This document shows positions 14,101 through 44,702 of a DNA stretch of 64,000 nt, one piece after another (position 1 is the stretch's first letter; every line of letters begins with the position of its first letter). Position numbers and translations under genes: made by a program. The notes beneath the pieces were generated by a model. The model was given only the letters and a program-made list of their open reading frames with translations, did not search any database and had not been told where the DNA came from. Source of the stretch: Cymodocea nodosa. Lineage: Eukaryota; Streptophyta; Magnoliopsida; Alismatales; Cymodoceaceae. Location: positions 18,577,501 to 18,641,500 of the forward strand of contig JAZBRI010000003.1 in NCBI GenBank assembly GCA_036874045.1. The letters run 5' to 3'.

Positions 14101-15049
14101 TACCATATGCTAATTTCATTACTCCAGTTTTACAATTTATAACAGCCCCTGATGTTGCTAAAAATGGCCTTCCCAAAATTAAAGATGTATCACTATTTTT
14201 ATGCTTAATTTGTTGGGAATCCAAAATTACAATATCAATAGGATATATAAAATTCTTGATTTTAATTAAGACATCCTCTATTTTTCCTCTAGGGTATCTT
14301 ATACTTCTATCAGCCAATTGAATAACCGTACTAGTAGGAGTTAAGCTTTCTAATCCTAAGGATGCAAATATATCACTTGGCATAATATTTATACTTGCAC
14401 CTAAGTCTATTAAGATTCTTTCTAGAATGGTATTTCCTATGGTGCATGATATAACAGGGATTCCAAGATCAAATAACTTTTTAGGAATTTGTGGCAGAAA
14501 TAGGTAACTACTTTGCTTAGCTAAAAAGATTTTTCTAAGAACTTTTCGTTCTATTTTCTTAGTACACCAATCCTTTAGAAATTTAGGACAAAGTGGCATA
14601 TTCTGCAATAGATCTAACAAAGGAATGTTAACTTGTACTTTTTCAAAAATTTCTCTTATTTTTTCTTGTTTTTCAGGAATTGTTTGTTGTAATCTTTTAG
14701 GATAGGGTGCTAAAGATTTTGATTTCAAAGACTCTTTTTCTTTCAGTTGATTTGTTTGATTATTTTTAGCTTCAATTACAGATTCAGATTGTTCTTCAGT
14801 GATTTCTAGGTTTTCAGCTATTACATTTTCATTATCATTTTGATTTTTACTCTTGTCCACCTTCATATCATTTTCATTTTGAGTTCTTGGTGGTATATGA
14901 GTTCCAGATCTTAATGTTACACATACATCTTCCAGATTTTCGTTACTTTCATGATGTTTTTGTATATCATTTTTGTGATTATGATCTTCAATTGTTTTTA
15001 GTTTTAAAGTGCATTCTTTAAATTCTATTACATTTGTGTTTTCTGTTTG
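11184..15049 (-). pseudogene. pol: G1 Pol: protease, RT, RNase H, integrase (near intact)
   Basis: The frame is open from 15049 to 11469, then a Trp-to-TAG change at 11468-11466, then open again to the truncation. Seen: protease ILIDLGASINIMPSDIF; RT with YSGYNQIPVALEDQ and FMDDFTIYG, the Athila-like form of YxDD; RNase [30 protein letters not shown] and VADHLSRL; integrase zinc-binding CLSCLRCQ; core [19 protein letters not shown] and [12 protein letters not shown] supplying D, D and E; C-terminal [20 protein letters not shown]. The stretch before the protease (VTLRSGTHIPPR) is the typical Athila linker. The most complete gypsy pol here and a good reference for G2. Confidence 0.93.
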
Positions 15050-15673
15050 TTATATATTTTGCAAGTTGTGCAGGTTTATAACATTATAATTTTCATTGTC
15101 CTGTTGCAAAACTTGTATTTTCATTGCATTCTTGTCTAATGCTTTTAATTTTGTTTCTAGCTCATCTAATTTCATTGCATTCAATTTTTGATCAATTTTC
15201 TTTATGGCTTTTTCAGTTTCGTAAATTATATCCTGTTTAGGTTCTGAATATGCCTCCTTATAGTTTAATTGGTTGACTTCTTGTTGTTGACACACAAAGT
15301 ATTTCAGTTTGTCCAGATTTTGCTCTATACTATGCTCCAATCTGTCATAGCTATCCCAAACTTTAGTGTCTCTCATCATATTACACATTCTATACTGACC
15401 ATCAGTTGGGTAAACTATAGGATTCTCATACTCGGCTCTATTATATTGAGGATAATTCATTTGTTGTTCATGGGATCTATCAATCTGTAAATGTCTCAAT
15501 TTCAAACAATCAGAAATGTCGTGTCCTTTAGAATTGCAAAATTCACATATGCTAATTAAAGGTTTTAGAAATCTTTGAGCATAAGCATATGCCATATTCT
15601 CAATTACAGAAGAAAACATACAACTCTGACTATTAAAATGAAACAACTCTAACAGTTGCTTATATCTATTCAA
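15050..15673 (-). CDS. G1 zinc-knuckle ORF (Gag C-terminal part without capsid)
   Basis: 207 aa in frame with pol, separated from it by one TAA at 15050. A CCHC knuckle (CEFCNSKGHDISDC) sits at about residue 43. Downstream are Gln/Tyr-rich sequence and a probable coiled coil (KKIDQKLNAMKLDELETKLK). The usual gypsy capsid domain should precede the knuckle, but only about 40 residues separate the knuckle from the start and only about 30 bases separate the start from the primer site. So the capsid is absent here. A capsid Gag without a knuckle occurs in G2 and G3. Deletion and split architecture are both possible. Confidence 0.75.
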   Translation of the reverse strand: MNRYKQLLELFHFNSQSCMFSSVIENMAYAYAQRFLKPLISICEFCNSKGHDISDCLKLRHLQIDRSHEQQMNYPQYNRAEYENPIVYPTDGQYRMCNMMRDTKVWDSYDRLEHSIEQNLDKLKYFVCQQQEVNQLNYKEAYSEPKQDIIYETEKAIKKIDQKLNAMKLDELETKLKALDKNAMKIQVLQQDNENYNVINLHNLQNI

Positions 15674-15700
15674 TTCAGTTCAATTCAATTCAATTCAATT

Positions 15701-24864: not shown

Positions 24865-27800
24865 ATAAATGTTATGCCAAGTGATATATTTGCATCCTTA
24901 GGATTAGAAGGCTTAATCCCTACTAGGACTGTTATTCAATTAGCTGATAGAAGTATAAGATACCCTAGAGGAAAAATAGAGGATGTCTTAATTAAAATCA
25001 AAAACTTCATATATCCTATTGATATTGTAATTTTGGATTCCCAACAAATTAAGCATAAAAATAGTGATACATATTTAATTTTGGGAAGACCAATTTTAGC
25101 AACATTAGGGGCTGTTATAAATTTTAAAACTAGAATTATGAAGTTAGCATATGGTAATGAGGATACTCAATTAAACCATTTCAAACTAGAAAAGTTTGAA
25201 GAGTTAGAAATGTCCTTACATACTATAGACTTTTTAGAGGATGAAGGAGATATGCTAGATGATGTGATTCAAGAAGAATTAAATAGGCAACTTAATTCTG
25301 AGATTTTAGAAGAAAGTGAAAGCATAAATGTGAAAGGAGATCAAGAAGAAATTAATTTAGAAATTAATGATGTTCAATTAGGAGCTCTAGCTTCTGATGG
25401 GCAACAGTTAGAATTAAAACCTTTACCTCCTGAATTAACCTATATATTTTTGGAAGAAAAATGAACATGTCCAATCATTATTGCTTCAGATTTAAGAGAG
25501 GATCAAATTGCTAAATTAAAAGATGTAGTAAAAACTTATAAAGAAGCCATAGGATGGACTATGACTGATATAAAAGGGTTAAGTGCAACTTTATGCTGTC
25601 ACCACATATATTTAGAAGAGAATGCTAATCTAGTTAGAATTCCTGAGAGGAGATTAAATCCAAACCTTAAAGGAGTAGTCAGGAAGGAAATAGTGAAATA
25701 GTTAGATAATAACATAATTTATCCAATTTCTGATAGCTCATGGGTTAGTCCAATCCATGTAGTTCCTAAGAAATCAAGATTAACAGTTATTAGGAATGAA
25801 ATTCAAGACTTGATACCTACTAGAATTCAATCAAGCTAGAGAGTGTGTATAGACTATAGAAAGCTGAATGCTGTAATTAGGAAAGATCATTTTCCCTTAC
25901 CTTTTATAGATCAAATGCTAGAGAAATTAGCAAGGCAAGAATATTTTTGTTTCTTAGACAGGTATTCAGGATATAACCAAGTTCTAGTAGCATTAGAGGA
26001 TCAAGAGAAAACAACTTTCACCTGTCCTAATGGAACTTATGCTTTTAAGAGAATGCCATTCGGATTATGCAATGCACCAGTCACCTTTCAAAGGTGTATG
26101 CAGGGCATATTCACTAGAATGACTGAAGATTTTTTAGAAATATTTATGGATGATTTTACTGTTTATGGAACTTCATATGAAGTGTGTTTAAACAATTTAG
26201 ACCAAGTATTAAAACACTGTGTGGAAAAAAATCTGGTTCTTAATTGGGAAAAATGTCACTTCATGGTTAATTAAGGAATCATCTTGGGTCATGTTGTTTC
26301 AAAGAAGGGGTTGGAAGTAGATAAAGCTAAAATAGAAGTAATTTCTAATCTACCAAAACCTAAGTCAATAAAAGATATTAGATCATTTCTAGGACATGTT
26401 GGATTTTATATAAGATTTATTAAAGATTTTAGCAAAATAGCTAGACCTTTAACTAATCTATTAAAAGATGTCCCATTCAACTTTGATAAAAATTGCAAAG
26501 AAGCATTTTTCAAGCTTAAAACTAGCTTAATTTCAACTTCTATAATAGAAGCACCTGATTGGAGTCATCCATTTGAATTAATGTGTGATGCATTTGATTT
26601 TGCTGTAGGAGCAGTGTTAGGACAGAAGATAGAAAAATCTCCTAGAGTGATTCATAATGCAAGCAAAACCTTAAATAATGCTCAAGTTAATTACACAACT
26701 ACTGAAAAAGAGCTGTTAGCTGTTGTGTTTGCCTTAGAAAAGTTTAGATCACATATGATTGGAGCTAAAGTGACAGTATACACGGATCATTTAGCTTTAA
26801 AACACCTAATAGCAAAGAAAGAGACTAAACCTAGATTGATCCGATGGATATTATTATTATAAGAATTTGATCTCGAAATTAAAGATAAAAAATGGTTGTG
26901 AGAATGTAGTAGCAGATCATTTATCAAGATTACAAATAGAAAAATCAAATATTGAAATTAAGGATAATTTTCCTAATGAACAGTTAATGACCATCAACAT
27001 AATGCCTTAGTATGTAGACATAGTTAATTACTTATTTATTGGTTTAACACTTAAGGATTGGAATAGACAGGATAAGAAATTGTTCTTTTCAAGAGTGAGA
27101 TATTACTATTGGGAAGGCCCATACTTATTTAAGAAATGTCCTAATCTGGTTTTAAGGAGGTGTGTTCTAGAAACTAAATATCAGAGCATATTATTTTTCT
27201 ACCATGGCCAAGCATGTGGAGGGCATTTTGGTTTAGGGAAAACTACTGCAAAAATTTTGCAATGTGGATTTTATTCGCCAACACTATTCAAAGATGCTCA
27301 TAAATACTATTTAAGTTGTTTAAAGTGTCAACAAATAGGAAGAATATCAAAGAGAAATATGCTGCCTCTTAATCCTATTGTTGAGGTTGAAATCTTTGAT
27401 GTGTGGGGAATAGATTTTATGAGTCCATTTCCTATGTCTATTAATTTAATTATATATTGTTGGGGGTGGATTATGTTTCTAAATGGATAGAAGCTATTCC
27501 TACAAAAACTAATGACAACATAGTGGTAATACATTTTATAAGAACCAATATAATTACCAGATTTGGAATACCTAAAGCTATTATCAGTGATAGAGGAACT
27601 CATTTCTGTAATAGAAGTTTTGAAGCCTTAATGAAGAAATATGGAGTAAACCACAAAATTGCAACATCATATCATCTGCAAACAAGTGGACAAGTAGAAA
27701 GTGCAAACAAACAAATTAAGTTAATCTTAGAAAAAGTAGTAAATCCTACTAGAACAGATTGGGCTAATAGATTGATAAATGCACTTTGGGCTTATAGAAC

Positions 27801-28308
27801 TGCTTACAAGACAAGCTTAGGTATGTCACCTTTTAGGCTAGTATATGGAAAAAGTTGTCATTTACCAGCTGAAATTGAACATAAAGCTTATTGGGCATTA
27901 AAAACTCTGAACACTAATTTAAATTAAGCTACTGAAAATAGGAAATTACAATTGATTGAATTAGAAGAATTTAGGAATGAAGCTTATTCGAAAACTGTAA
28001 GAGAAAAAGAGAAAATGAAGTTTTGGCATGATAAGAAAATTATTCCAAAAACCTTTGAAGTAAGACAAGAAGTATATATTTATATAACCAGACTCCATAA
28101 CCATCTAGGAAAATTAAGATCTAGATGGGCAGAACCTTACATAGTTTGAAATATTTATCCCTATGGAGCTATTGAAATTGATAATGCTAAAAATTAGAAC
28201 ATATTTAAAGTAAATAGACAAAGACTTTGACCTATTTTGAAGATACCAAAAGGTTCTTTTGGAATTGTAGAAGAAGTAAGAGTAGAGGACTACTCAAGCT
28301 TTACTTAG
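24865..28308 (+). pseudogene. pol: G2 gypsy pol, several stops
   Basis: Matches G1 pol from MPSDIFASLGLE (protease, just after the active site) to the end of integrase. RT keeps YSGYNQ and FMDDFTVYG; RNase H keeps [18 protein letters not shown] (the second Asp is altered relative to G1) and [12 protein letters not shown]; integrase has [19 protein letters not shown] and GQVESANKQ. Stops at about 25462, 25698, 25837, 26272, 26860, 27008 and 27925, plus frameshifts near 26893 and 27455. The integrase C-terminus (KLRSRWAEPYIV) ends at TGA 28228, with a further in-frame tail to 28308. It shows what followed G1 pol before truncation. Confidence 0.9.
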
Positions 28309-28590
28309 TAAGAAAGTTTCTAAGTATATAACTTAAAAAAAAACTTATTTAAAACATAGTCACGGTTCAACTAGACGAAATTGTCAATTTTACCGAAACA
28401 TGTTTTAAAAAGAAAAAAAATTGTTGAGGTTCAACCAACAGGATCCATTAGTTTGACTAAAACGCAAAAACATAAAATATATATTATATTTAGTTAAGTG
28501 TCGATGTTACCGAAGTATAGTATCGGTTCAACCGATAAAAAAAGAAAAATTATTATTATTATATGTATTTTTATTAGATATAATTTTACA
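28309..28590 (+). other. G2 intergenic region with GGTTCAAC repeats
   Basis: No ORF; A-rich. GGTTCAAC occurs three times (near 28365, 28431 and 28532), the last inside ATCGGTT-C-AACCGAT, a 7-bp inverted repeat with one central base. GGTTCAA resembles a polymerase III B-box, but there is no A-box or terminator at suitable spacing that I can see. Function unknown. Confidence 0.35.
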
Positions 28591-28595
28591 GGAAG

Positions 28596-28815
28596 TCCGT
28601 TGAGTTACAGTTAACTCAATGAATTTACTCCGTTGAGTCTAGGAGAAGTTAACGAACTTACCTCGTTGAGTTAACTATAACTCAACGGAGTACTGTAGTT
28701 AAGTCCACAGACTTAGTCCATGGAGTTAACCGTAATTCCACGGATGAGAGAACGAGAGTTGGTGTGGGAAATGATTCGATTACCTGCCTAAACTTAGGGC
28801 TTATTTATATTAAAC
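28596..28815 (+). promoter_or_regulatory. Candidate internal promoter of G2 accessory ORF
   Basis: Two inverted pairs: TCCGTTGAGTTA (28596) with TAACTCAATGAA (28612), and CTCGTTGAGTTA (28662) with TAACTCAACGGA (28678), each with a 4-nt spacer. Single motifs and GTCCATGGAGTTAAC (near 28717) follow, and a TATA-like TTATTTATATTAAAC at 28801. The ORF starts at 28897. The same plan as upstream of the copia accessory ORF. Inferred promoter. Confidence 0.5.
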
Positions 28816-28896
28816 TTAGGGTTTGGGGGCATTATCCACAGAATCACTTAGAATAGTAAAGATCAGAGTGACTCTGTTCCATTGCATAACTCCACG

Positions 28897-31131
28897 ATGA
28901 GGAAGATGACACCTGAGTTCTGGGAAAAGGCAATAGACACATCAGAATTTCTTAAAGACTTAGAGGAATGGCACACGAGGCAGAAAATAAAAAATACGAC
29001 GAGGGAAAAAGAGCTACAAAAGGTAGAATCTGACCTTTTTTATTGGAGGAAAGAGTTAGTAGATATGGGTATACAAATTCCTTAGATAATGGAAATTAGA
29101 ATCAAAGTTGCTTCAAAAATTGCTGTAAGTAAAGAATGAAAAATCAGGCCAAATAATGAAGTTGCCCTAGAACTAATCCAACGTAAGTCCTGGCTCTGGT
29201 TCAAAAGACACATAGGTAGATGAGCTCGATGGGCAATCTGGGAGCAACAAAGGAAGGCAACTGAAGAATAAGAGGAACCGATTGCTGAAAGACCTGTTCC
29301 TGAGGAACAGCAACTAGGACCTTTAGTTCCACCACCAAGGCCGTTGGAACAAGCAGCAATTTTGGGGCCTTCTACTAAAGAAGAAAGAAGAGAATTTCAA
29401 GAACTGGTTCAAATAGGAAAAGACCAAGGAGAACCAGAAGAATTGGCAGTAGCTATAGCACATCTGGTGTTTGATGCACGATGCAAAAAGAGGGTTGTAG
29501 AAAAGCTAAAAGCCCAATATAAAATCAAAGTGGAACAACATTGTGAAGCTACTGCCAGACCTACTATAAAAGGAGATGAAGCTGGTCCTTCGAGACTAGT
29601 AATTATGGAAAGAGTTAAATAGGAAAAGCCAGTACCTGTGGCTAAAAGGCCTATAGAGCCTATTTTTGTGGATTTAATCTTAGATGAGGAAGAGGAAGAC
29701 CAGACACAATTAATTAGAAAAAGGAAAGGAAAAGAGATAGTGTCTAAATATCAAGAGGAGATTAAATTTGAAAGACAAATGTCAATAGAGCCTACAGAGC
29801 CAAATTTTGTAAACCTGCTATCCGATTTTGAAGAGGAGCAGGAGTAGCAGCAGCAAGAGCAAAGAGAAGAAGAAAAACAGGTTGAAACTAGTCTACAGCC
29901 TGTACAAATAGAAGAAACAGAAATTAGGGCAGAAGCTAATTTGCCCGGAACTCCATCCCAATCTGCCACATAATCAGAAAGAATAGTGACAATGCAGATT
30001 GGTAGTTAGGAGGAAGAAGAAGAAGAAAAAAATGAACAAGAAGCTAAACAAGTATATATGGAAAGAGATGACTCAACAGATTCCACTAAAGAGCAAAGAA
30101 CTCTTTAGCAAATTTTGGATAGTATTCAAGATAGAGTGGAGAGTTCTACTAGCTCACCACCATAGACAAAAGTAAAAGCAAAATTGCCAGAGTCTGTGGA
30201 GCATTTTCAGCAAGTACAAGTTCAGCATTTGGAAGAGGAAGTTCAAGAACAAACCCCTTAGGAGCAACAAATGCATATTCCTGATCCTTCTGAAGCAATA
30301 GTTTTAAATGAAGTACACTTTCGGAGTTAGGAAGCTTATGACAAATACCAAGAGATTAGGGGTTATAATATCATTTATAGTAGACCAATAAATTGGGACG
30401 GAATGCAAGAAATCAAAGAATTATTTGAATTCCAAGGTCTACTGAAGTTTATTTCTCAAGAAAGAGGGCATGCAATATATGAGAATCTAGTGCCCTGCTT
30501 TTATGCAAACTTAAGAGAAGGAGAAGGAAGATTAATTTCCGACGTGGAGAAAGCTGATGTACAAATAACACCAGAGCTTCTCCACAACATTCTTGGATTG
30601 AAGAATGAAGGACTAGAAATTCTGGAAAGCACAATTGCAATCGAGTGGACAAAGCAAGCAATAAAGGATTGTTTAGCTATCAATACTGGTGTGCCGTTAT
30701 TCAATAGACTAAAGTAGCTAAATGGTACAACACACATGATAGCAAACATTCTAATTAAGAATGTCTACCAACGACAAGGCCATGATATAGAACTGAGTCA
30801 ATTTGTCAAGTGGGCCACATATGCAGTTGTGAACAGAATTCAGATAAATTGGTCTGTAGTTTTCATCTCCAAGCTGAAAATAGTAAAGAAGAAATTATTT
30901 TATGGAGATCTGATTCCATTGCTGGTAGTGGACTGTATTGATTTCACGAAATGGGCATCTAAAAAGATCAAATTAAGAACTATTTCAGTGAAAGAATATA
31001 GAAATTATGTAGCTGCAGAGATTGCTGAACCTTCTAGAGGAATTACAGGAGCTGTAGAAAGGATTAACCAATTACAACAACAATTAGAAAAGCTTCAGAA
31101 GGAAGTAGATGAACTTAGGAGAAAAGATTAA
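28897..31131 (+). pseudogene. G2 accessory protein (plant-transposon-type domain), broken
   Basis: About 740 codons with roughly ten stops, otherwise in one frame. The ATG at 28897 is preferred (a TTG lies at 28882). N-terminal third Lys/Glu-rich; middle very Glu/Gln-rich and low complexity; C-terminal domain (about 30310-31040) with YSRPINWDGMQEIKELFEF, FYANL, ILGLKNEG, MIANILIKNVYQRQGHD, NRIQINW and LFYGD; a final coiled coil (NQLQQQLEKLQKEVDEL). The C-terminal domain is clearly homologous to the copia accessory ORF (C4, C6). From memory it resembles the putative plant transposon protein domain (Pfam PF20167); this needs an HMM check. No membrane segment or signal peptide, so it is not an envelope protein. 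Confidence 0.75.
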
Positions 31132-31572
31132 AATTGTATTGTTCGTCTACTTGTAATTGTATATATTTGTATGAAAAATATCTGACTGATTGTAATATAC
31201 ACTATTCATATAAATGAATGTATGTTTATCAGATGTTTTTGCATTTGTGTTTGAGAATGATGTATTGGATGAACTATCTTGAATATTAAACAACTGTTTG
31301 AACATTATGCAATTTGCTGAATGACAAGATTAAAGGCACGATAACTAATTAATGCCTGAAAATATCTACATGCTGCCAAGTAAAATATAAAATTCTACAC
31401 AACATGAAATGAACTGCAAGTTAAATATTTATATAATGTTCAGATGTAAATGAGTTTTAATTAGAATGCTGCATTAATGACATGTATTTAATTTTATTTA
31501 AGTTGGAAAAATGCAGGAGAGAAGAAAAATATAGAAGTTAACACGAGGAGTAAACTTAGAGGTTGCTAAGTA
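31132..31572 (+). other. G2 noncoding region after accessory ORF
   Basis: AT-rich, no ORF. Near the end TTTAAGTTGGAAAAATGCAG followed by GAG (about 31500-31525) is 3'-splice-site-like. I found no LTR end, primer site or polypurine tract here, so there is no direct sign of an element boundary. Confidence 0.4.
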
Positions 31573-31925
31573 TTAACTCAACGAAGTAAGTCCGTTGAGT
31601 TAACCTTAACTCCACGAGGTCAATAATATAATATAAGGTCACTCCGTTGAGTTATCTGTAACTCAACGAAGTTTGTCCATGGAGTTAGCAGTAGTAACCA
31701 AAGCTATTCCGTTGAGTTATCTGTAACTCAACGAGGTTAGTTCGTGGATTAAGCTAAATAGTTATTCGTTTAGCCATGAACGAAACTTTGTGGGTTTAGT
31801 AGTTACTGAAATTTGAAATTAGAAGTGGCACACATACCCATAAAAATAGGAACCATACTACACGTTACAAGACACGTTCTTGCAACGAGATTCATTTTCT
31901 TTATGGACGTGCATTATAAATATAG
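31573..31925 (+). promoter_or_regulatory. Candidate internal promoter of G2 capsid Gag
   Basis: Motif array: single sites at 31573, 31591 and 31604, then two inverted pairs with a 4-nt spacer, TCCGTTGAGTTA (31643) with TAACTCAACGAA (31659) and TCCGTTGAGTTA (31708) with TAACTCAACGAG (31724). A TATA-like ATTATAAATATAG lies at 31913-31925, about 170 bases before the Gag ATG. G3 keeps the TATA region (minus, about 40205-40220). Promoter role inferred. Confidence 0.5.
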
Positions 31926-32095
31926 AATAGAATGTTGTTTACAAGTTACCAGCATTTGAGAAAAGAAAATTCGTTGGGGAACTGGAAGGAGAAGCAACTG
32001 ATTCAACTTCATCCGTCAACAACTATCTACTGAATATAAAGCTTCAAACTAGTACATAATTGATCTTCTATTATTTTATTTTATGTTAAGAGTTT

Positions 32096-33438
32096 ATGAG
32101 CACATAGATTCATTCTCCTAGCACTAAACGATTAGTAAGAACACCTACACAGGATTATTCAACAAAGAGATGTACTAAAATTTTTTCTAAATTGGACTTT
32201 AATGAAATCCTTAGGGGTGTAGCTAACCTTTCTTTAAAAGAGAACGAAGATATGGCTGCTCCAGTAGAGAAACCATTAGGGGAAATTCTATATCCTAAAT
32301 TAGTTGATGAACCTTCATGTATTCGATTGTCAAACTTTAAGGGAGATAGGTTTGAATTGAAATCTAATTATATTAGTCAATTGCCACATTTTCATGGATT
32401 AGAAAGATAGGATGCCTATTATTTCCTTAGAGAATTTAATGAAGTTTGTCAAATGATGAAAATGCCGAATAAGAGTATAGATGCTATTAAACTTAGATAT
32501 ATCCCTTTTGCTTTAAAAGACACAACTAAGAGATGGTTATGTACTCTATCGCCTGATTCAATTTCTACATGGACTGAATTTTGCTCTATTTTTCTAGAAA
32601 GATATTATCCAACACATCAAACGATTAAAAAGAAAAAGGAAATATTAATGTGTAGCCAAAAAAAGGGAGAATCATTCTGGAAATATTTTGAAAGATTTAA
32701 AGATTTACTGACTCAATGTTCGCATCATGCAATGAGTAAAGTACAATTGATAGGTATAATTTATGAAGGCATAGATGTTTCAACGAAATCTTTATTAGAA
32801 TCTACTTGTCAAAATGGATTTTTAAAATTGTATAGTGAAGAAGCATGAGCATACTTAGAAAACTTTGCAAAAAGAACTGCATAGTGGGAAAACTCAACTG
32901 AAACTATTGTAGATAAAAGAATATTGCCAAGGGGAATGCATGAAATAGATTCAAGCACTATGCTTGAAGTTAAATTAACAAAGAAAATAGAAGAGTTATC
33001 ATTAAATCAAAAACTAGCAGAAAAGAGTGCAAACGTTAATGATTTAGATATTATTTATGCTAGAAACCAGAAAGATAACTTTGGAAATTCTTATAACCCT
33101 AAGTGGAGAAATTACCCAAATTTATCTTGGAGAAATAACAATTTCCAGGTAGGAGAAAATATAAATGACAAAAATATAAGTTATGAAGCATTAATTGAAC
33201 AAGGATCTAGAATAGAGAAGTTAGAAAAGATAATTCAACAATTAAAGAATCGTTTAGATTTTGTATTTGGAAATGCTGTAATTCAAAATCAAAATATAAA
33301 TAGAAATATACCCCTTAGATAGAAAGAATCAATAGAAGTTAGACCTACTAGAGGATTGCCAATGTAAAGTAGTACCTAACCCTATTAATAGAATTGTTAA
33401 TGAAATTGATACCTCCTCTAGGAGGGTAACTGAATGAA
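32096..33438 (+). pseudogene. gag: G2 capsid Gag without zinc knuckle
   Basis: Gypsy capsid-type Gag of about 440 codons. The ATG at 32096 is supported by the identical start in G3. Retrotransposon capsid pattern: ISQLPHFHGLE, YYFLREFNEVCQMMKMP, AIKLRYIPFALKDTTKRWL, TWTEFCSIFLERYYP, GESFWKYFERFKDLL, LIGIIYEGID. Then YNPKWRNYPNLSWRNN, normally found after the knuckle in Athila Gag, and a coiled coil (IEKLEKIIQQLKNRL). No CCHC knuckle lies between, in either copy. Stops near 32105, 32408, 32846, 32882 and 33319. It lies downstream of pol, not at the 5' end. Confidence 0.85.
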
Positions 33439-33553
33439 ACATCATAACTGAAGTAACTATGTATAATATAGTAAGTAGAAAAATATAAAAAAAATATAAG
33501 TTTAATTATAGTTAGTAGTATCATAGAGTTATTACTTAACTCAACAAACTTAA

Positions 33554-33649
33554 TCCGTTGAGTTATGACCTAACTCCACGAGGGTATGAAGTAGCTATGT
33601 TGATTTTGTCTTTGTTAATTTTTTTTTATGTCATACAGAATCATAACAG
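33554..33649 (+). promoter_or_regulatory. Motif pair and splice-acceptor-like site before F-box gene
   Basis: TCCGTTGAGTTA (33554-33565), 5-nt spacer, TAACTCCACGAG (33571-33582). Then a pyrimidine-rich TTAATTTTTTTTTATGTCATACAG ending at about 33638, just before the ATG at 33650. G3 has the equivalent (CTCGTGGAGTTA and TAACTCAACGAA at 38539-38567, and GTTTATGTTATATAG). A spliced or internally initiated F-box transcript is inferred. Confidence 0.45.
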
Positions 33650-34782
33650 ATGGAATTGATGAAACTATCACTGAATGCACTAAGGGTAATATTGAGTAAC
33701 CTATCAGCTAAAGATCTATGCAAATTTTGTTGTGTCAAAGGAAATCAAAGACTGTGTTAGAGAAAAATATTTTCATGGACTACAAGCTGCAAAGATGACT
33801 AAGATTAAAGATGGATTTTTATGGAAGTCATTTAATCGTAGTTCAATCAACTATGAATATCTGAATATGGATGAAACTACTGGAATTCCACCCAATACAT
33901 TAGAAGGAATAAATCATATTATGGGGATGGATGAATGATTAATTATATACAGAACCAAACCAAGGTATGCAATTCTGTTACCTGATATTTTGATTAGAAA
34001 TCCTATCACAAGAGAAGAATGGAATATAGGAAGACCTAACAGATATGAAGTACCATTTGAAAATTGTGGGTCAGCTTTAATCTTTTTTGAGAAATTTTCG
34101 ACCATTCCTAAAAAATTATATTATTGGAGACCAACTAGAAACTAGGATGAAGATTTATGCTTAAGTGTGTATAATTTTCTGAATAGATTTTGGACTGAAA
34201 ATATTATGATATATCTAGGATAGAAAGCATTAATTAACAACATGCATGTCATACTTGATGGATATATATATCTAGTCACAGATATATCAGTTGCATTTAG
34301 ATCTGATTTATGCATAGTAAGCATAGACAGTTATGATGATTTTATAGAAATATTACCTATACCAAGTGATATAGCTAAACCACCATCTGTAGAATATGAT
34401 AAAATTCAATTAGGAATGTGATATAATGAATATGATGATCCTACTTTGTCTGATAAGATGGTGGGATGAATTGAAGAAATTTCAAATACGGATTATAAAA
34501 GACCTAAATGAATGGATGTGGGAAGAGGAATATATTGAAATAGATGTAGAAATAGAAACAGCTACACTATCTTGGAACAGAAGAAGATCTCTTTCTGCAT
34601 TTCATTTTATTAATGGAAATACACTTATATTTATTATTGATAACATATTTCAAGTTTACAAATTAACAAGGAAAATAGAGTGCATTGAAACAGAATTGAT
34701 AGCAAGAAGAATTATACCAAAAAAGTTTGCTTGGACTGACACGCTTATTCCATTTGTTACTACTTTTCAATCATGTTCTTAA
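33650..34782 (+). pseudogene. G2 F-box / F-box-associated (kelch-like) gene
   Basis: Plant-type F-box protein of about 375 codons. N-terminal F-box: MELMKLSLNALRV then ILSNLSAKDLCKFCCV, matching the F-box pattern L-x-x-x-L-x-x-I-L-S-x-L-x-x-K-D-L and then C-V-S-K, the last part after a one-base frameshift near 33736. After it are ILIRNPITREEW, like the NPxTRE motif after plant F-boxes, MHVILDGYIYLVTD like a propeller blade (VDGxLY), and an ending WTDTLIPFVTTFQSCS like the common C-terminus of plant F-box propeller proteins. F-box proteins recruit substrates to SCF ubiquitin ligases. Several stops and frameshifts (33939, 34143, 34219, 34421). Conserved in G3 in the same place after Gag. Confidence 0.75.
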
Positions 34783-34917
34783 AGTGTGATTCTGTGTTTT
34801 TAATGTTGTGTAGTCTACATTTATGTGTTAAAAAAAAGAAAAGAAAAAGAAATCAGAATGTTTAACTGAAACTCAGTAAATTATCTGAAATCCTGAAAGA
34901 GCTAAAATGTTGATTTT

Positions 34918-35705
34918 TAGATTAAAGGAAATACATATGATCAATGATACATTTAATTTGATTGATTAAACTTGTAGAATGATTTATGTGTAGATCTTAT
35001 TAAACTACAAAAAAAGTATGAGCTTATTGATATGGATTCATATTTTCAGTAAATAATAAGAGTAGGAATATACGAGATTTGTGTTTCATTGCATCTATAT
35101 TAATGAAATACATATATATACTGTGTTGAAAAGAAAAAAAAAAAGAAAATTTTGCGAGTTTATTGACTTGTTTGATCACGAGCCTTTTGTACTTGAGCAG
35201 ATAGGTATGTAAGGATTGTTGACCTGAAAAAGGACTCTTTAAATCTAGCAACCTAAGATCCTAATCAGTTATGGGATTGTTGACTGAAAGCTCGATACAT
35301 GGGTACACTAGAAAGCTCTTGTATGATTCAAGCTTGTCAAATTAACTTTTAAAGTACAAATATGCATATACTGTTCTGAAAAGATACAAGTGTTTTGTGA
35401 AATACAGATATCTTCTGAATTGAGTATATGTTCTGTTATCTAAAATTGCTGAAGTATGAATCTAGAATAGACTTTTGAAGTTGTTTATTTGAGATACAAT
35501 TCTTTATTCTACTGTGTTAATCATATTGACTTGGATTGTGTTTTGATTCATATGTACTTGAAATTTATTCTAGAAATCATATTGGAAAATTCAGGATGAT
35601 AAATGTTGAAAAGAAAAAAAAAATGATAATATAATTAACACTTATGTGATGCTGATATATTTTGTATGTAATTTACATATATTCTAAATATATTTGCAGG
35701 TTGAA
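34918..35705 (+). other. Noncoding cassette of G2, homologous to copia post-pol cassette
   Basis: Aligns with copia C2 about 9762-10580 over its whole length: TGATTAAACTTGTAGAAT, TGAGATTTGTGTTT-like, TTTGATCACGAGCC, ACTTGAGCAGATAGGTATG, GAAAGCTCTTGTATGATTC. Splice-like ends: GTATGTAA with GT at 35205 and TATATTTGCAG ending 35699, 495 bp apart. The region is AT-rich without ORF. Such similarity between copia and gypsy elements is not expected by descent. Confidence 0.75.
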
Positions 35706-35865
35706 GAGGAGAAAACAAAGTTAAAATAGATTACTGAAGCATACAAAATATCTATATAGTAATCTAATTCATTATTCTGAAGAAGAACAAAATGAAGAAT
35801 TAAATCTAGCACTTTAGAAAGATCAATTAGTTAGATCTTAGTTTGCTAAGGGACTAGCAAAATTT

Positions 35866-35879
35866 AAGTATGGGGGAAG
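35866..35879 (+). other. G2 polypurine tract
   Basis: AAGTATGGGGGAAG directly before the LTR start TGTTTAG at 35880. This is the expected plus-strand primer of an LTR retrotransposon and shows this LTR served as the 3' LTR of the sequence to its left. Confidence 0.75.
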
Positions 35880-37842
35880 TGTTTAGATTGAAAAAGTACA
35901 TAATATTAACAATTAAATGATGGTTAATTACATAATTTTTAGCTTATCATATGAAAATTAAGTCATTATGTTATAATTGCACTGTTATATGCTTTAATGA
36001 AAGAATCTACATAATTCCAAGAAATTAACGTTAATTTAGTACATTATGAACTGTCGAAAAATTGCAGGCTATGAAACTCTTTAGTATCCGAATTTTCTAT
36101 TATTTTGAAGAGTTATGTTTAATGTATCAGACAATTATGTTTTAAATACTTAAAGAATATTTTATTATTTCTTAGATTACACGTGTTGAAACTATAATGC
36201 ATGACTTAAGAGGATTTTCAGTAAGTTATTTGTTAACTATCCGAAATGCATCTGAGCATCGGATAGTTAGGTTCATAAGTGTCCAAAATATTTGAACTTG
36301 TTAAGTTAGAATTATGCACATGTTGAATTTAAATGCTTTAGTATATCACGTGAGATGCACATGTATAACTCGTTAAGTTAGCATAACTGTATGCGTTGAG
36401 TTACATGAATACACACTAAGGTAACACGTTACGTTAGCAGCTTATTTCTTTAGTGCACGTGTTTTATAGTTAAATCAACGAAGTAAGTCCGTTGAGTTAT
36501 CTATAACTCCACGGACCATTTATTTTCTAATATGCCACTGTAGCAGTTACAGAAACAAGACATTCGAAGGAAAACCATGATTCCACGTATCATGCAGGAA
36601 ATCGCTCGTGGAAGGAAGAAGAAATCACCATCGTTGATATGAACGAAGGAAATCCAACTGATCATCGAAGTAGAAGCAGTTATTACTAAGAAATATAAAA
36701 GAAAAGGAGAAAAAACGAAGAAGAGTGTGGCTAGTGTGTGTGTAGAGGAGGAGGACCGTGCTAACTGTAGGCAGCGACGAAAGTTCCTTGAAGTTCCACA
36801 CAACCATCACCACCATGACCATAATCACCAACCATTGGAGGTCTGTGAGGATACTTTCCTGATGTTGGGTTGATTCCGAGCCAAACACAGTGCTTGACAA
36901 CCACTATGAGGAGTGATCGCGTCGTAGGAAGGGAAGCCACTTTCACCAAGCACCGACTCATATCTCAAGAGATTGTAATGCTTCTAGCCTTGGTTTTGGG
37001 TTGATGCCAGTATGCTGAAGAGGAGATCAACTTGCAATTCTGGACTCGCGATTCTATAGGGAGAGGAGACAGAATTGTAAGTTGTTAAATTTTCAGTGGT
37101 GTAATCACGTTGCATGTAGTGACGAAAGTTTTTACTATCGATAGAGATTACTTTTATATTTCACCTTTTGCCCATTTTCATGATCATATCAAAACAAAAA
37201 TACCAAAAACAACTTATCTATCTTTATAGTTTGAGTGTTGTATTGTTTGTTTTGTATCGTGATTAATATTATCATTGTCAGTGTTGTGAATGTTTCATGT
37301 TTGTTTAATTTAGAAAATAGAAAATAGTTTTATAGTTTACTGAAATTGAATCATTCTTGATACTTAAAGATTTTAATGGTTACTGTTTGAAATATCTGAA
37401 TGTTAGTGTTATTGAATGATAAATCTAATATTAACTAGCATTAAAGAGCCTAATTGATGTTATTTACAATCTGTGGAACCGCCCAATGGTTGGCCGAATT
37501 CCTTTGTAAATAGCAGTATTAAACTAGATAGATTGCTTCGTTGAGTTAATTCAATTCCACGAGATTAGTCTGTTGAGTTAGCTATAACTCAACAAAGTGC
37601 TTATTGAATATATAAATTCCATTATTAAAAATGGAATAGTACACAATTCTTGCTCAATTCTCTATAGGATTGACCTGTACTTGCACACAAATACAATATA
37701 CACTATGCACTTACAGTTAAAATACAAATTGGAATTAATATCTAATTTGTGTGAAAGATTGTTTGTTGACTTCTAAAAGGAATTACTGATATGCATAAAG
37801 ACAAATTAACTAAGTTATAAACAAAAGTTAATAAGACAAACA
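35880..37842 (+). repeat. G2 LTR (1963 bp)
   Basis: Begins TGTTTAGATTGAAAAAGT and ends AAGACAAACA; aligns with the G1 LTR. Inverted pairs at 36488-36515 (TCCGTTGAGTTA, TCTA, TAACTCCACGGA) and 37569-37596 (TCTGTTGAGTTA, GCTA, TAACTCAACAAA). TATA-like ATATAAAAG near 36695. GTACTTGCAC...GTGCA-like block near 37675. CGGATAGTTA near 36258. It contains the second copy of the antisense ORF (36961 to 36761). Confidence 0.9.
36761..36961 (-). other. Antisense ORF inside G2 LTR
   Basis: 66 aa, antisense to the LTR. Its first 48 residues resemble the G1 LTR antisense frame (16646): LVKVASL, SLLIVVVKHCVWLGINPTSG, KYPHRPPMVGDYG. The tails differ. Conservation could reflect selection on the LTR sequence itself. 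Not recognised. Confidence 0.3.
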
Positions 37843-37849
37843 AGTTTTC

Positions 37850-37867
37850 TAGCGTTGTTGCCGAGGA
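37850..37867 (+). other. Gypsy primer-site sequence after the G2 LTR
   Basis: TAGCGTTGTTGCCGAGGA resembles the Asp-tRNA-like site of G1, at the same 7-base distance from the LTR end. A shorter partial duplicate (AACAAGTTCTCTAGTGCCGCC) follows. So this one LTR has a polypurine tract on its left and a primer site on its right. The right-hand internal region is lost after about 50 bases, at the G3 junction (about 37898). Confidence 0.6.
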
Positions 37868-37898
37868 ACTAAACAAGTTCTCTAGTGCCGCCTAAAAA

Positions 37899-38470
37899 TT
37901 CAATCAATATATCATAGTATTTTTAGTCCAAGATCTATTCAAAAAATTATACACACTTAAGCATAGATCCTCATCCCAATTTCCAATTTGTCTCCAGTAA
38001 TACAATCTTTTAGGAATTGTCGAATTTTTATCAGAAAATGTTAAAGCTAACCCACAATTTTCAGTTGATACTTCAAATCTATTAGGCATTCCTATATTCC
38101 ATTCTTCTCTAGTGATAGGAATTCTAATCAAAATATCGGGTAATAGAATTGCATACCTTGGTTTGGTTCTGTAAACAATTAATCATTCATCTATTCCCAT
38201 AATATGATCTATTCCTTCTAATGTATTGGGTGGAATTCCAACATTGTCTTCCATATTCAAATATTCATAACTGATTGAACTATGATTAAATGACTTCCAT
38301 AAAAATTCATCTCTAATCTTAGTCATCTTTGCAACTTGCAGTCCATGAAAATATTTTTCTCTGACACAGTCTTTAATCTCTTTTGACACAACACAATCTG
38401 CATAGATCTTTAGCTGATAGTTACTCAGTACTTCCCTTAGCGTATCTAGTGGTAATTTCATTAATTCCAT
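37899..38470 (-). pseudogene. G3 F-box gene, 3' truncated
   Basis: Second copy of the transposon F-box gene, minus strand, ATG at 38470-38468. It starts MELMKLPLDTLREVLSN, with the canonical F-box L-P-x-D-x-L. One-base losses then shift the frame through the middle of the F-box before VSKEIKDCVREKYFHGLQ. Downstream: IPITREEW, CGLALTFSDKNSTIPKRLYYW. Cut at about 37899, corresponding to G2 position about 34210, so the C-terminal half is absent. A stop near 38182 matches the G2 stop at 33939. Confidence 0.72.
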
Positions 38471-38688
38471 CTGTTGTGATTCTATATAACATAAACAAAA
38501 TTTAGCAAAGATAAAATTAACATAACTACTTATTTACCCTCGTGGAGTTAGGTCATAACTCAACGAATTAAGTTTGTTGTGTTAAGTAATAACTCTACGA
38601 TACTACTTACTATAATTAAACTTCCATTTTTTTCTTTTTATATTTTTCTTTTTACTATATTATACATAGTTACTTCAATTATATTGAT

Positions 38689-40029
38689 TCATTCAATTTC
38701 CCTCCCATAGGAGGTATCAATTTCATTAATAGTTCTATTGATAGGGTTAGGTACTACTTGCATTGGCAATCCTCCAATAGGTCTAACTTCTATTAATTCC
38801 TTTTGTCTAAGGGGTATATTTCTATTCATATTTTGATTTTGAATGGCAGCATTTCCAAATACATGATCTAGACGATTGTTTAATTGTTGAATTATCTTTT
38901 CTAACTTCTCTATTCTAGATCCTTGTTCAATTAATGCTTCATAACTTATATTTTTGTCATTTATATTTTCTCCTCCCTAGAAATTGTTATTTCTCCAAGA
39001 TAGGTTTGGGTGATTTCTCCAATTAGGGTTATAAGAATTTTCGAAGTTATCTTTCTAGTTTCTAGCATAAATAATATCTAAGTCATTAATGTTTGCATTC
39101 TTTTCTACTAGCTTTTGATTTAATGATAACTCTTCTATTTTCTTTGTTAATTCAACTTCAAACATAGTGCTTGAATCTATTTCGTGCATTCCCCTTGGCA
39201 ATATTCTTTTATCTGTAATAGCTTCAGCCGAGTTTTCCCACTATGCAATTTTTTTTGCAAAGTTTTCTAAGTATGCCCATGCTTCTTCACTACACAGTTT
39301 TAAAAATCCATTCTGATAAGTAGATTCTAATAAAGATTTAGTTGAAACATCTATGCTTTCATAAATTATACCTATTAATTGTGCTTTACTCATTGCATGA
39401 TGTGGACATTGAGTTAATAAATCTTTAAATCTTTCAAAATATTTCCAGAATGATTCTCCCTATTTTTAGCTACACATTAATATTTCCTTTTTCTTTTTAA
39501 TCGTTTGATGTGTTGGATAATATTTTTTCAAAAAAACTAAACAAAATTCAGTCCATGCATAAATTGAATTAGGCAATAGAGTATATAACCATCTAACTGT
39601 TATGTCTTTTAAAACAAAAGGAATATATCTAAGTTTAATAGTATCAATACTCATGTTCGGCATTTTCATCATTTGACAAACTTCGTTAAATTCTCTAAGG
39701 AAAAAATAGGTAACTTGTCTTTCTAATCCATGAAAGTGTGGCAATTGGCTAATATAATTAGATTTTAGTTCAAACCTATCTCCCTCAAAGTTTGGCACTC
39801 GAATACATGAAGGTTCATCAACTAATTCAGGATACAGAATTTCCCCTAATGGCTTTTCTACTAGAGTAGCCATATCTTCATTCTCCTTTAAAGAAAGGTT
39901 AGCTACACCCCTAAGGATTTCGTTAAAGTCTAATTCAGAAAATATTCCAATACGTCTCTGTGTTGAATAATCCTATGTAGGTATTCTTACTAATTGTTTA
40001 GTGCTAGGAGAACGAATCCATGTGCTCAT
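38689..40029 (-). pseudogene. gag: G3 capsid Gag without zinc knuckle
   Basis: Second copy of the capsid Gag, starting MSTW at 40029, with the same order as G2: SQLPHFHGLERQVTYFFLR, IKLRYIPFVLKDITVRWL, CLVFLKKYYPTHQ, GESFWKYFERFKDLL, YNPNWRNHPNLSWRNN, coiled coil, then VRPIGGLPMQVVPNPINRT, ending TGA at 38691-38689. Stops near 39465, 39975 and others. Again no CCHC knuckle, so its absence is a family trait and not one deletion. The leader to 40224 matches G2 31905-32095. Confidence 0.83.
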
Positions 40030-40224
40030 AAACTCTTAGCATAAAGTAAAATAGCAGAAGATTAATTACATACTAGTTCGAAACTTTGTTTTCAGTAAAT
40101 AGTTGTTAACGGATGAAGTTGAATCAGCTACTTCTCCTTTTAGTTCCCCAACGAATTTTCTTTTCTTTCCTCAAGTGCTAGTAACTCGTAAATAACATTC
40201 TGTTCTATATTTATAATGCACATC

Positions 40225-41896
40225 TATAGGATCGTATGGCTACACAAGAGAGGGGTGAATTGTGTTTTTCAATATTTTTGAATATAATTGAAACTTTAAA
40301 ACTCAAAAACAAGTCAAGACATTGTATTCATAAAATCATTTTTATTCAACATTTCAATTACAATATACAATTCAATTCTCCTCAGAAATTGTAAATGCAA
40401 TTATATATCGATACCATGTTTCATCTATACAATTTCATAACTACAAACATAGAAAACTAATTTGCAGAATTTAAAACATTTCTCCCTATTTGAGATCTTT
40501 CTTCTTCTTCCCTTTCTTCTTCATCAATTCTTCAATGACTAATATCTTGTCTTTCTCTGCTTCACCGAATTTGCTTTCTTCTGATACTTTAAATCTTCAG
40601 TGACGTAAATCTAACCATTTCTACTTCACTGAATTTTCTTCCATCTAATACTTCAAATCTTCAGTGACATATATCTTACCTTTTTCTACTTCACTAAATT
40701 TTCTTTCACCTGATACTTCAAATCTTCAGTGACATATATCTTACCTTTTTATGCTTCACTGAATTTTCTTTCACTTGAGAGCTTTTCCCTGAATAGGTGT
40801 TTTTGATCTCTAAAAAGATTTTTCTTTCGGTGTGTAGGGATAACTGATCAACAAGAATTCTATGCCTTTTATACTGTATCTTCATTTCATGCATATCCTC
40901 CACGTTTAATCACAATCAGTCTTCCACTTCTTCACATCTTTTCTTTTTCCTTCATCGAAATACACATATTCTGACCCACGTTTACATTTCGAATTTTCTT
41001 TAATCATCAATCCTGGATCTCTGAAAAATTTCCTGCAAAATAAACTTTCTCGTCCAAAATATTTCATCAAGTGTAATAAGAAGTTGTTAGTTTAATGTTA
41101 ACTAAACGAGTAACCCAAGTATATATATAACTTAACGTTTCTAACTTAACGAGTTCCTCATGTGCCAACTCATGTGACAAGCACTGTAGCTAACTCAACG
41201 AACTATCTTCGTGGTGTTATGCTAACTCAACGAACCATCTTTGTGGTGTTACGATAACTTAATGAACCAATAATAAACAAATGTTTTTATAATAAGAATT
41301 TTACCACGTGCAAAAATAACAACTTAAGTTTATAACGCTAACCTAACATGTTGCCTTAGTGTTCAATATAGCAACTCAACATGTTTAGTTATGTTAACTT
41401 AACGAGTTAAACATGTGCAGCTCATGTGATACAATATAACATTCGTAACTTATAATTTCACCATGTGTACAACACTAACTTAATGAATTCGTCTCTTCTT
41501 TTACTCATTAACTTAACGAGTTCTCACGTGACCTATTTTAACCTTTAAGCCTCTAACTTAATGAGTTCTCACATGATCTCTATACGAACAAAACTCTAAC
41601 TTAACGAGTTGTCTAAACGTGCACTGTTCAAGATATAGAGGATATAACTTTAAAACATATCATGCTTTTCAATAAAAATACACGTTAACTTAACATTTAG
41701 TTAAATGAGAAATTAACGTAATGAAACGACTAGTTATTAACTTAGTATAATTTTAGATCCAATACAGACAAGTATTTATATCAGTAAGCTTTTTCTGTAT
41801 TAATTGATGTACTTAATTTCATTTCACAAGCAATAGTAATTGAGCAAATATGATTATTTTCATTCAGCATACATCATCAAAACAAAATACTCAATA
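40225..41896 (-). repeat. C4 3' LTR (1672 bp)
   Basis: Copia LTR in minus orientation. Left end TATAGGATCGTATGG (expected TGTAGG), right end TACTCAATA (expected TACTCAACA); both terminal dinucleotides show one G-to-A or C-to-T change. A polypurine tract on its right makes it a 3' LTR. It is inserted into the G3 leader. It holds about four 65-bp repeat units (about 40530-40770) and the motif-rich part (about 41090-41720). Confidence 0.9.
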
Positions 41897-42437: not shown

Positions 42438-44702
42438 TTATCTATTCCTCCTAAGTATATCACTTATAGCATTACATATTTTATCTCCTAGATGCCTAAT
42501 ATCATTTTTGATGTCGTTAAGCACATCATCTAGGTCAAGAGGTAGCTGGGGTTGCTGTTCTGCTTGAACTGAGTAACTTGGTTGTTGTTGTTGTATATGG
42601 TCTATACAATCAGGTTGTTGTTGTTGTTGTTGAGGTTGATGCATAGCCTGGAATTTTTACAAATCTTTTACACTAAAAGCTCTCATGCCTTTAGTTTTAG
42701 AGGGCCAACCGGATAAATTCAATTAGCTTGCAAGGAGTCTACATACAACATCACTAAAAAATAACTTTGAACTCATATGCTGTAGTTGAGAAGTAAAAAC
42801 ATCAAACCAATTGATTTGAATTCTATGCAGTAGACCATAAGTTGCATATAAACAACTTCTACTGACTTCCATATTGTGTCCAACTCTTTGAAATAAATTG
42901 GCATGCAATATATTTGCAATAAACCATGCCTCTACATTCAGATTTTCCATGAGTCTCATTTCAGTATATACATTTGGAATTTTTGATAAAGACTGAATGT
43001 TCCATTCTAGTTGTCTAATCATGTCAAATTTGTTTGTAACAACAACACCTTCATTCTTTAATCCTAAAACTTCAAAAATTAATTCAGGAGACAATATTAA
43101 CTCTTGTTTATTTATTTGAGTTTTCAGTATATTTTCATTCTTCACTAGATTGCTATAAAAAGTTGCAATAAGCTCTGTGTATTGCTTTCATTTCGTTCCA
43201 ACTGGCAAGAATTGAATGAGGCCTTGATACTCAAATAGATCTTTTATTTCCATCAAATTTCTGAATTTTATTGGACGAGCATGCAGAATTTGACATGTAA
43301 TCAGATTTTTGTATTTTTGCACTGCTTCCTCAGATCTAAAATGAGTTGAATTACCTTGAATTTGTAATACTATACACAAAGAAGGTGATACTTGAAGCCG
43401 TGATTCAGAGTTTAATTCATCTTCAGGAACTTCTTCAAAATGAATGTCATGTTGTTCCTTTGTGAAAATATTTTCTTGAAGCTACTCAGGTAAGCTTAAT
43501 TCTTCAGCTTCAATAGTGTAAGGAACATTTTCAATATGCTCAACATTCATCTGTTCAATCTCTATAGAATGATCAGAGTTCAATTTTTCCATAAATTCTA
43601 CAGTTGGTGTATCTATCTATAATTGTTCATTTTGTTCAATAGATATTTCCATTAATACATGTTATGAATTCTCAAACTCTGCTTCTATAGATTCTGAATA
43701 AGGCTGGTTGACTTTTAGCTATTCTAGAGTCTTAACATTTTCAATAACTGCTACTCCAGACAATTCAACCTGTGAACTAGTTACTGCCTTAACAATGTCA
43801 ATTATATCTGCAATAACTTGTTCAATGTCAATTGCCTAATGCTCTGATTTTTCAATTTCTGCATCATCGGGACTTGCATTAATAGGAAAACTTGAGCTCA
43901 TATTTGACTTGCATTTCTTCTCAAGTTTTCTTTCTAGAGAAAATAAAGTCTCATTATCATCATCAGTTTCAGTATGTTCAGAACTAATGAGTTTATCAGA
44001 TGCACTAAAAGGTACAATGTCTAGACATATATTGTCCTTTGGAAATAAATGTTCATCTGATTTTCCTTTTTCAATAGACTTTGTTTCCTTAGACATAATT
44101 TTTCTAATTTTCCTTCTTCTATAAAATTTATGTTTCTCCTCTTGAAGTATTGATGTTTTCTTTTTAAATTGCTCCATAAAAGTATTTTGCTTTAATTCTT
44201 CAAAAGCACTTTTTATTGCTATAGCCTTCCAAAGACTATCAACTTTTCTTTTATCTACAGCAATATTTGAGTCTACTTGTTTTGAATATAAAGGAGTAGG
44301 GATAGCTGATTCATGTTCTTCCTCAAATGCATGTAGTCTTGTACCATTTATATGTATTTGAGGAATTCTAGTTGATATACCTACACCTTTTTCCAAATAT
44401 TTTGCATACTATTTTAAAAATACAATTTCAGCACATTTCATTCTATATTCTCTATCATATTTACTTCGAATACCCATATATGCAATATTTTCATCAGTAT
44501 TTTGAAGCTCTTGTCTAACTTCATCTAGTATACCTTGAGGAAATAAGTAATCCCTATAAATTTCTGCTAACCTTTTGTCCACTCAAAGTATCTTCTTGAA
44601 CCAAGTGCATGGAACTTCATCAGTATCAATTTCTTTTCCTTTTGCATCTCCTATGTTTTTGCCTTTTCCTCTACCACGACCTTTGTAGAACTTGGAGACC
44701 AT
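42438..44702 (-). pseudogene. C4 accessory protein (plant-transposon-type domain), broken
   Basis: About 750 codons from MVSKFYKGRGRGKGK (ATG at 44702) to SDILRRNR. N-terminal basic GRGRGKGK patch (possible nuclear-localisation or RNA-binding sequence); middle acidic, Glu/Ser-rich; conserved domain in about 42660-43380: RPIKFRNLMEIKDLFEYQGL, FYSNLVKNEN, EVLGLKNEG, FIANILHANLFQRVGHN, NRIQINWFDVF, KLFFSDVV; then a Gln-rich stretch (QPQQQQQQP) and an amphipathic end. About ten stops. Homologous to the G2 accessory protein over the conserved domain. It stands where Sirevirus envelope-like ORFs stand, but has no transmembrane segment or signal peptide. Confidence 0.8.

Follow-up and report, generated by a model that had tools for sequence, protein, structure and literature searches.

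The closest described counterparts of the element examined here are the plant long terminal repeat (LTR) retrotransposons Athila, Calypso and Bagy-2. According to two reports, these elements carry long LTRs bounded by TG and CA, a primer-binding site (PBS) soon after the LTR, gag-pol and an extra open reading frame (ORF) in sense orientation before the 3′ LTR, and splicing has been reported for Bagy-2 (PMC7264820; PMC1142308). An element of this layout lies in a 64,000-nucleotide stretch of Cymodocea nodosa DNA (C3:18577501-18641500, hereafter the window), for which the species' own genome was searched (374.6 Mb in 28 contigs). Unlike its counterparts, whose extra ORF is env-like, it carries a gene for an F-box protein, and its capsid gag lies after pol and inside an intron. 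F-box proteins normally mark other proteins for destruction. Probably, an Athila-like Ty3/gypsy family with thousands of copies has in this F-box a true accessory gene, expressed from a spliced message and acting as an SCF adaptor that serves the element. The gene is a member of the element, persists in intact copies, is under purifying selection and is spliced, the last as recorded in genome copies.

Position and sense orientation also recall the eORF-3′F/aORF-3S of plant LTR retrotransposons. According to PMC6317226, such extra ORFs (eORFs) occur in most elements of the Ogre/Tat/Athila superclade, a resemblance to a known domain was seen for only 21.4% of the proteins they encode, and whether they have a function has been questioned. 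Unlike those eORFs, the gene described here has a clear domain, measured selection and a visible splice. eORFs are widespread, and it has been questioned whether they are of any use (PMC6317226); because a clear domain, a selected frame, intact copies and a genome-visible splice are combined in this case, the question of eORF function becomes testable through ASK1 binding and through the target. For plant LTR elements, both additional ORFs and env-like ORFs with a spliced message are already on record (PMC7264820, PMC1142308, PMC6317226). The word F-box is absent from the main text of PMC7264820 and from that of PMC6317226, and among the matches listed from the open literature, none described an F-box gene that belongs to a family of LTR elements; an earlier annotation of such a gene may exist.

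Parasite-borne F-boxes or F-box-like motifs are also present in polerovirus P0, crinivirus p22 and fijivirus P7-2. Polerovirus P0 acts against AGO1, and p22 and P7-2 are described as binding SKP1. The likeness considered is one of motif; the product described here is, unlike the viral proteins, a 378-amino-acid protein with a plant-type F-box and an F-box-associated region. A further parallel is offered by the KIU genes of VANDAL Mutator-like elements, whose Ulp1 domain we ourselves class as belonging to the ubiquitin-like system. In these elements, too, a captured domain has been kept as an element gene, and KIU has been linked to silencing escape (PMC13317346). In contrast to KIU, which combines a DNA transposon with a protease-type domain, the present case involves an RNA element and a predicted SCF adaptor type, for which a silencing role is purely hypothetical.

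The sequence-only reading of the window had placed an F-box gene 3′ of the capsid gag of an LTR retrotransposon, with a second copy in the opposite orientation, and in both respects the arrangement is as it claimed. The main features are the following.

33650-34782, + strand: F-box gene, 378 codons in relatives, broken here
33659-33775, + strand: F-box domain, corresponding to residues 4-42 of an intact relative and to the PF00646 match on that relative
32052-33638, + strand: intron of the F-box message (GT...AG), containing the capsid gag ORF; the segment precisely missing in spliced copies elsewhere
37908-38470, − strand: second F-box copy, inverted and broken, first ~188 codons, with its ATG at 38470

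Of the two gene copies that had been proposed, the one at 33650-34782 stands, whereas the second is a truncated fragment and not a full gene. Compared with an intact relative, the first copy carries four in-frame stops and two 2-nt deletions and is therefore not open. The second retains ~188 of 378 codons and abuts LTR/PBS sequence at 37907. The two belong to stretches that are 89% identical over 2.3 kb (31902-34214 on the + strand and 40228-37907 on the − strand). The motifs NPITREEW, VILDGYIYLVTD and a TDTLIPFV end, which had been ascribed to both, are found in the first copy; the second reads IPITREEW instead. Taken as a whole, the earlier observation is partly confirmed and the interpretation drawn from it is supported.

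A complete copy of the element, 17,059 bases long, was found on contig 12 (hereafter C12; loci L040 and L043, which are adjacent stretches). Its order is LTR, PBS, the zinc-knuckle part of gag with pol, ORF-A, capsid gag (PF03732), F-box, 3′ region, polypurine tract (PPT) and LTR, the zinc-knuckle part before pol having been read by eye from the ORF. Its two LTRs, 1970 and 1971 bp long, share 92.4% identity, and it is flanked by a 5-bp target-site duplication (TSD), ACCCT/ACCCC, with four of five bases in agreement. The F-box ORF of this copy is intact at 378 codons, and its capsid stretch has four stops. The PBS-like sequence TGGCGCCATTGCCGGGGA starts 7 bases past the LTR end and may be complementary to tRNA-Asp. 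A PBS of that complementarity is given for relatives in PMC1142308. Window positions 24866-37842 represent the same kind of element, minus the 5′ end and minus ~0.6 kb at 34847. The LTR pair, PBS, PPT and TSD (in C12) and the order reverse transcriptase (RT), RNase H (RH) and integrase (by Pfam, on window pieces) place the element in Ty3/gypsy. In the window, 148 bases separate the RH ORF from the integrase ORF, and no second RNase H was found in the pieces scanned, 27011-27444 lying outside the scan. By layout the element resembles Athila, except that the PF03732 capsid lies 3′ of pol and not upstream of it.

Further copies in which gag precedes the F-box, as had been anticipated, are present. 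At 23 loci (seven near-identical copies on C2 omitted), capsid gag directly 5′ of the F-box is nearly full in 16 and partial in two. The remaining five have no capsid gag within 1.5 kb; two of these (L010, L011) are spliced, one (L017) has a nested insertion and two (L022, L024) have other deletions. A far-diverged family (L067/L076) likewise combines the end of pol with an F-box, here 35-42% identical, followed by a capsid gag with 62% protein identity over 179 residues. Here, too, a CAG site with a T-rich tract precedes the F-box; the copy that was read is a broken one. Compared with the main family, F-box and capsid have changed places, the capsid being 3′ of the F-box. Six more places with 61-85% identity to L067/L076 were found by protein search, their membership being judged by the match only.

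An acceptor-like site, consisting of a T-rich tract and CATACAG immediately 5′ of the ATG, had also been pointed out, and it proved real, occupying the same position as the acceptor end of a segment absent from spliced, intron-less copies. When the 75 aligned bases 5′ of the start codon were compared in 47 sequences, two kinds emerged: in six (L010, L011, L048, L054, L056 and L057), the sequence from the acceptor outward is one found ~1.6 kb further upstream in the others. Relative to C12, L010 and L011 match to base 12878 and resume at 14469/14470 (a single base can be assigned to either side). What they lack is a segment of 1.59 kb that starts with GT, ends with AG and holds the entire capsid ORF. 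The other four copies use the same donor and resume within a few bases of that acceptor, their exon 2 containing small indels. The donor reads ...ACTG/GTATGT and the acceptor TACAG/AATC, 11 bases 5′ of the F-box start, with a T-rich tract before the AG; in the three 10-kb unspliced copies tested, the exons are 1591-1599 bases apart. Genome-wide, allowing at most one mismatch, words for the exon junction occur at 220 places (control 0) and words for the unspliced donor at 2,482 (control 1). In L011, both LTRs stand where they are predicted to be if the intron alone is missing, and both share the same internal deletion. Behind the first LTR of this copy come a PBS-like sequence and the beginning of gag-pol, its LTR pair is 87.5% identical, and its TSD is unreadable.

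On account of the six precise GT-AG absences, the 220 junction places and the structure of L011, we infer that the F-box message is spliced and that the spliced RNA has been reverse transcribed and inserted. These copies thus show retrotransposition of spliced element RNA, an event proposed for the loss of env in Diaspora (PMC1142308). As with env-like eORFs, a sense ORF between pol and the 3′ LTR has a spliced message, the splice being read from genome copies and not from RNA. Intron-less copies might instead have arisen by recurrent deletion or recombination, or the capsid segment might have been inserted into an older intron-less element. Nested insertions (L041, L063, L064) are indeed frequent, as are ordinary deletions, such as those of L022 and L024, which lack overlapping stretches with different breakpoints. 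However, the six copies come from three regions of the tree and have the same ends apart from the small indels in exon 2; those ends form a GT-AG pair whose AG is preceded by a T-rich stretch, and the junction recurs at 220 places against none for the control. We therefore regard such an origin as very improbable. Separately, an LTR/F-box join in L041 was considered as a splice and rejected. The joins in L041, L063 and L064 are nested insertions because the junction is the exact LTR terminus (..CA), and the pattern search behind the L041 candidate itself favored LTR-terminus joins.

The abundance of the gene was assessed with a 1,146-base F-box query, for which 40 of 4,647 first-look candidates were scored. 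All 40, one being the window itself, align across essentially the whole query at 93% identity or more. A second subfamily, found as a neighbor in locus L041, gave the same result (40 of 40 scored at 95% or more, among 4,456 candidates, one being the query), so that scored places are near full length in 40 of 40 cases in each of two subfamilies. Intact copies of 376-379 amino acids exist. The frame is open in nine of 41 distinct copies, comprising seven of the 13 chosen for long ORFs and two of the 23 chosen by DNA similarity alone. A protein search with a distant relative returned at least 148 matches (147 scored of 5,334 candidates), and 34 of the 148 listed have an open frame of at least 374 residues and a match free of stops. 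Among 22 distinct Pfam F-box places inspected from 150 listed (13 of them chosen for long ORFs), 21 are relatives of the element gene; the single exception, L005, is an ordinary host F-box gene. Similarly, eight of nine places among the best or longest F-box-associated profile matches are the element gene (81-88% protein identity), and the ninth is a distant relative. F-box gene counts in the Cymodocea nodosa genome can consequently be swamped by retrotransposon copies. For a host donor, a protein database search with 1,370 candidates gave none at E <= 0.001 and no relatives in named species, and the nearest host F-box gene was not found, L005 having no tblastn match to the element gene at E <= 10. 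From the counts, seven near-identical C2 tandem copies, the second copy of the window (misaligned past its end) and L041_0 were omitted; two places bear two names each (L041_0 is L017, and L061 is L007).

Selection was estimated with the codon model MGK in IQ-TREE on 19 diverse copies, with stops masked. For the F-box frame, the ratio of nonsynonymous to synonymous rates (dN/dS, omega) is 0.451, with kappa 5.4 and a log-likelihood of -5733.1. Fixing omega at 1 on the same tree gives -5787.3 (the best of the kappa values tried), ~54 log units worse, and the wrong frames of the same copies give 0.83 and 1.18, in keeping with the expectation that dN/dS would not be neutral. By part, omega is 0.38 for codons 1-48 and 0.49 for the remainder, and across all 41 copies it is 0.473. 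Parsimony on the tree agrees, in that the ratio of nonsynonymous to synonymous changes (N/S) falls from 2.08 on terminal branches to 1.13-1.40 on internal ones (p=1.2e-4), whereas in the wrong frames N/S goes up, not down, on deeper branches; in a 16-copy subset, the tree count for the F-box reaches p=0.052 only. Ten of 12 listed pairs have dN/dS of 0.29-0.41, the others 0.47 and 0.57, and one further pair 0.68. Neutral simulation with the observed mutation spectrum yields a pairwise ratio of ~0.85 (95% range 0.58-1.24 at the largest divergence). Singleton-versus-shared counts for the F-box give p=2.3e-4 in the right frame and p=0.01 in one wrong frame, and because such counts are significant in wrong frames as well, the codon model is relied on. 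The F-box reading frame is under purifying selection.

These results bear on the possibility that a host F-box gene was transduced once and has since been dragged along by copying as a passenger of no use to the element. Precedent is ample, with hundreds of LTR-captured genes in rice, sorghum and maize (PMC3726574), and 32 of the 41 copies are not fully open, with some stops common to several copies. Against a passenger stand the omega of 0.45 with wrong frames near 1, the frame kept intact across subfamilies at a synonymous divergence (dS) of ~0.3, the use of the splice sites and the association of F-box and element in a family at 35-42% identity. A useless passenger is accordingly held to be improbable. 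The gene is part of the element family rather than a host gene that happens to lie nearby, as the sequence-only reading had it, given the many full-length copies, the complete LTR element, the purifying selection and the far-diverged family.

With respect to the protein, the F-box is confirmed by profile search. PF00646, with a curated cut-off of 20.5 bits, scores 40.2 bits (E=2.7e-10) in the natural intact relative L013 and 37.7 bits in a second intact copy. Toward the C-terminus, F_box_assoc_1 (NCBIfam TIGR01640) reaches 29.8 bits (E=3.5e-7) in L013 and 27.9 bits in L032, both below the cut-off of 37.9, and FBA_1 reaches 14.7 bits in L013 against a cut-off of 21.1, L032 being absent from the matches listed. 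In the genome itself, a search with F_box_assoc_1 (150 scored of 1,636 candidates) found matches at 145 places. The cut-off is reached at 38 of them, five only together with neighboring matches; the top match among the 150 scored is 49.8 bits, and the signal at the inspected places is the retroelement gene. AlphaFold modeling on nine natural proteins returned a mean predicted local distance difference test score (pLDDT) of 34.5, with only the first 40 residues, the F-box region, averaging above 50 per ten-residue block. A sequence search of the PDB with one protein gave five matches (best E=1.1), none an F-box protein, and a PDB search with an alignment gave as its only F-box match a weak one to FBXO4 (E=0.56). 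The putative substrate-binding part is assigned by profile similarity because the reference F_box_assoc match is below its curated cut-off and the structure model failed.

Several findings weigh against an accessory gene that serves the element. When one set of 16 copies is used for both genes, omega is 0.51 for the F-box frame (wrong frames 0.79 and 0.98) and 0.76 for the capsid frame (0.72 in the one wrong frame tested), so that capsid gag is near neutral, which is odd for an autonomous element; from this gag set, two partial sequences (L016, L018) and L032, which is the C12 copy, were additionally left out. The singleton-versus-shared count on capsid gag gives p=1.6e-4 in a wrong frame. Pairwise dN/dS alone proves little because the wrong frames of pairs span 0.31-1.04, and for the closest pair they fall below the right-frame 0.47. 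A stop at codon 192 is common to 11 of 41 copies, and nine stop gains fall on internal branches, against 61 on terminal ones; therefore, either copying went on in some lineages after their F-box had been broken or the same sites are hit by mutation more than once. The F_box_assoc match below its cut-off and the poor structure model (pLDDT 34.5) make the adaptor assignment more tentative, and the case as a whole is built from genome sequence, with SKP1 binding and the target as its predicted parts.

If the F-box is an accessory gene, as we favor, unspliced RNA would yield the capsid, and RNA in which the upstream exon is joined to the acceptor, with the 1.59-kb intron removed, would yield the F-box protein. 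Packaging and reverse transcription of the spliced RNA would have founded the capsid-less elements. The F-box would bind plant SKP1/ASK, and the C-terminal F-box-associated region would present a target to the SCF ubiquitin ligase. The gain for the element would most likely be the removal of a host restriction factor. A target in host defense is plausible because the viral F-box or F-box-like proteins p22 and P7-2 bind SKP1 and because VANDAL elements carry KIU genes with Ulp1; that the target is a silencing component would be hypothesis only. The protein could instead act on the element itself, lowering its own capsid or integrase and thereby limiting copy number or timing assembly. A single splice choice apparently decides whether an RNA yields capsid or F-box, a design that would suit such a switch. 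On the other hand, the family stands at thousands of copies and the capsid is weakly constrained in the sampled subfamily, and we judge self-regulation unlikely, although less so than a passenger gene. Extending the accessory-gene reading further, plant LTR elements may have evolved a strategy of complex retroviruses, in which an SCF adaptor made from alternatively spliced RNA eliminates a host restriction factor such as a silencing component. Retention of the gene would then predate the separation of the families at 35-42% identity, and its success would have filled the genome with thousands of copies. We offer this broader view tentatively, as a speculation with somewhat less in its favor than against it.

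The remaining parts of the element in the window, and the fragment beside it, are as follows.

24866-28075, + strand: pol part (RT, RNase H, integrase), by Pfam RVT_1, RT_RNaseH and rve on pieces; colinear with C12, cut on the left by a copia LTR
30331-31131, + strand: ORF-A, 3′ of pol; weak resemblance to Transposase_32/PF20167 (19.3 bits, below the 45-bit cut-off)
32150-33430, + strand: ORF for capsid gag (Retrotrans_gag PF03732), broken here, its start and end approximate; a natural relative matches at 7e-19
34905-35733, + strand: non-coding 3′ region, with 74-78% identity to what follows pol in the window's Ty1/copia elements
35866-35879, + strand: polypurine tract
35880-37842, + strand: LTR (TG...CA), compared with the C12 copy
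37850-37867, + strand: PBS-like sequence after the LTR, then the inverted fragment at 37907
~38500-40228, − strand: capsid gag belonging to the inverted fragment, with approximate limits; cut by a copia LTR at 40228

Two of these parts resemble sequences in the Ty1/copia elements of the window. The 3′ region at 34905-35733 has 74-78% DNA identity to 9750-10596, 58846-59708 and 46113-45226, which lie after the pol of copia elements, and this non-coding module thus appears common to the Ty3/gypsy and Ty1/copia superfamilies in the window. ORF-A (30331-31131) is related to a copia post-pol ORF (61230-62495, also 42723-43187), with 32% identity over 84 amino acids between 30331-30714 and 61230-61871 (E=1e-12). 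In addition, gag is split in a further element of the window, G1, which at 15050-15679 on the − strand has only the zinc-knuckle part after its LTR, as before pol in C12; a Pfam scan of this piece gave no match. Elsewhere in the genome, two rearranged groups of F-box copies were noted. L004 and L065 share a chimera in which the F-box is cut at base 386 of the coding sequence and runs into an LTR in inverted orientation; the two may stem from duplication of one rearranged element. At C2:8.75-9.71 Mb (L026-L028, L031, L033-L036), near-identical F-box copies stand on one strand ~60-200 kb apart, as in a large tandem or segmental array.

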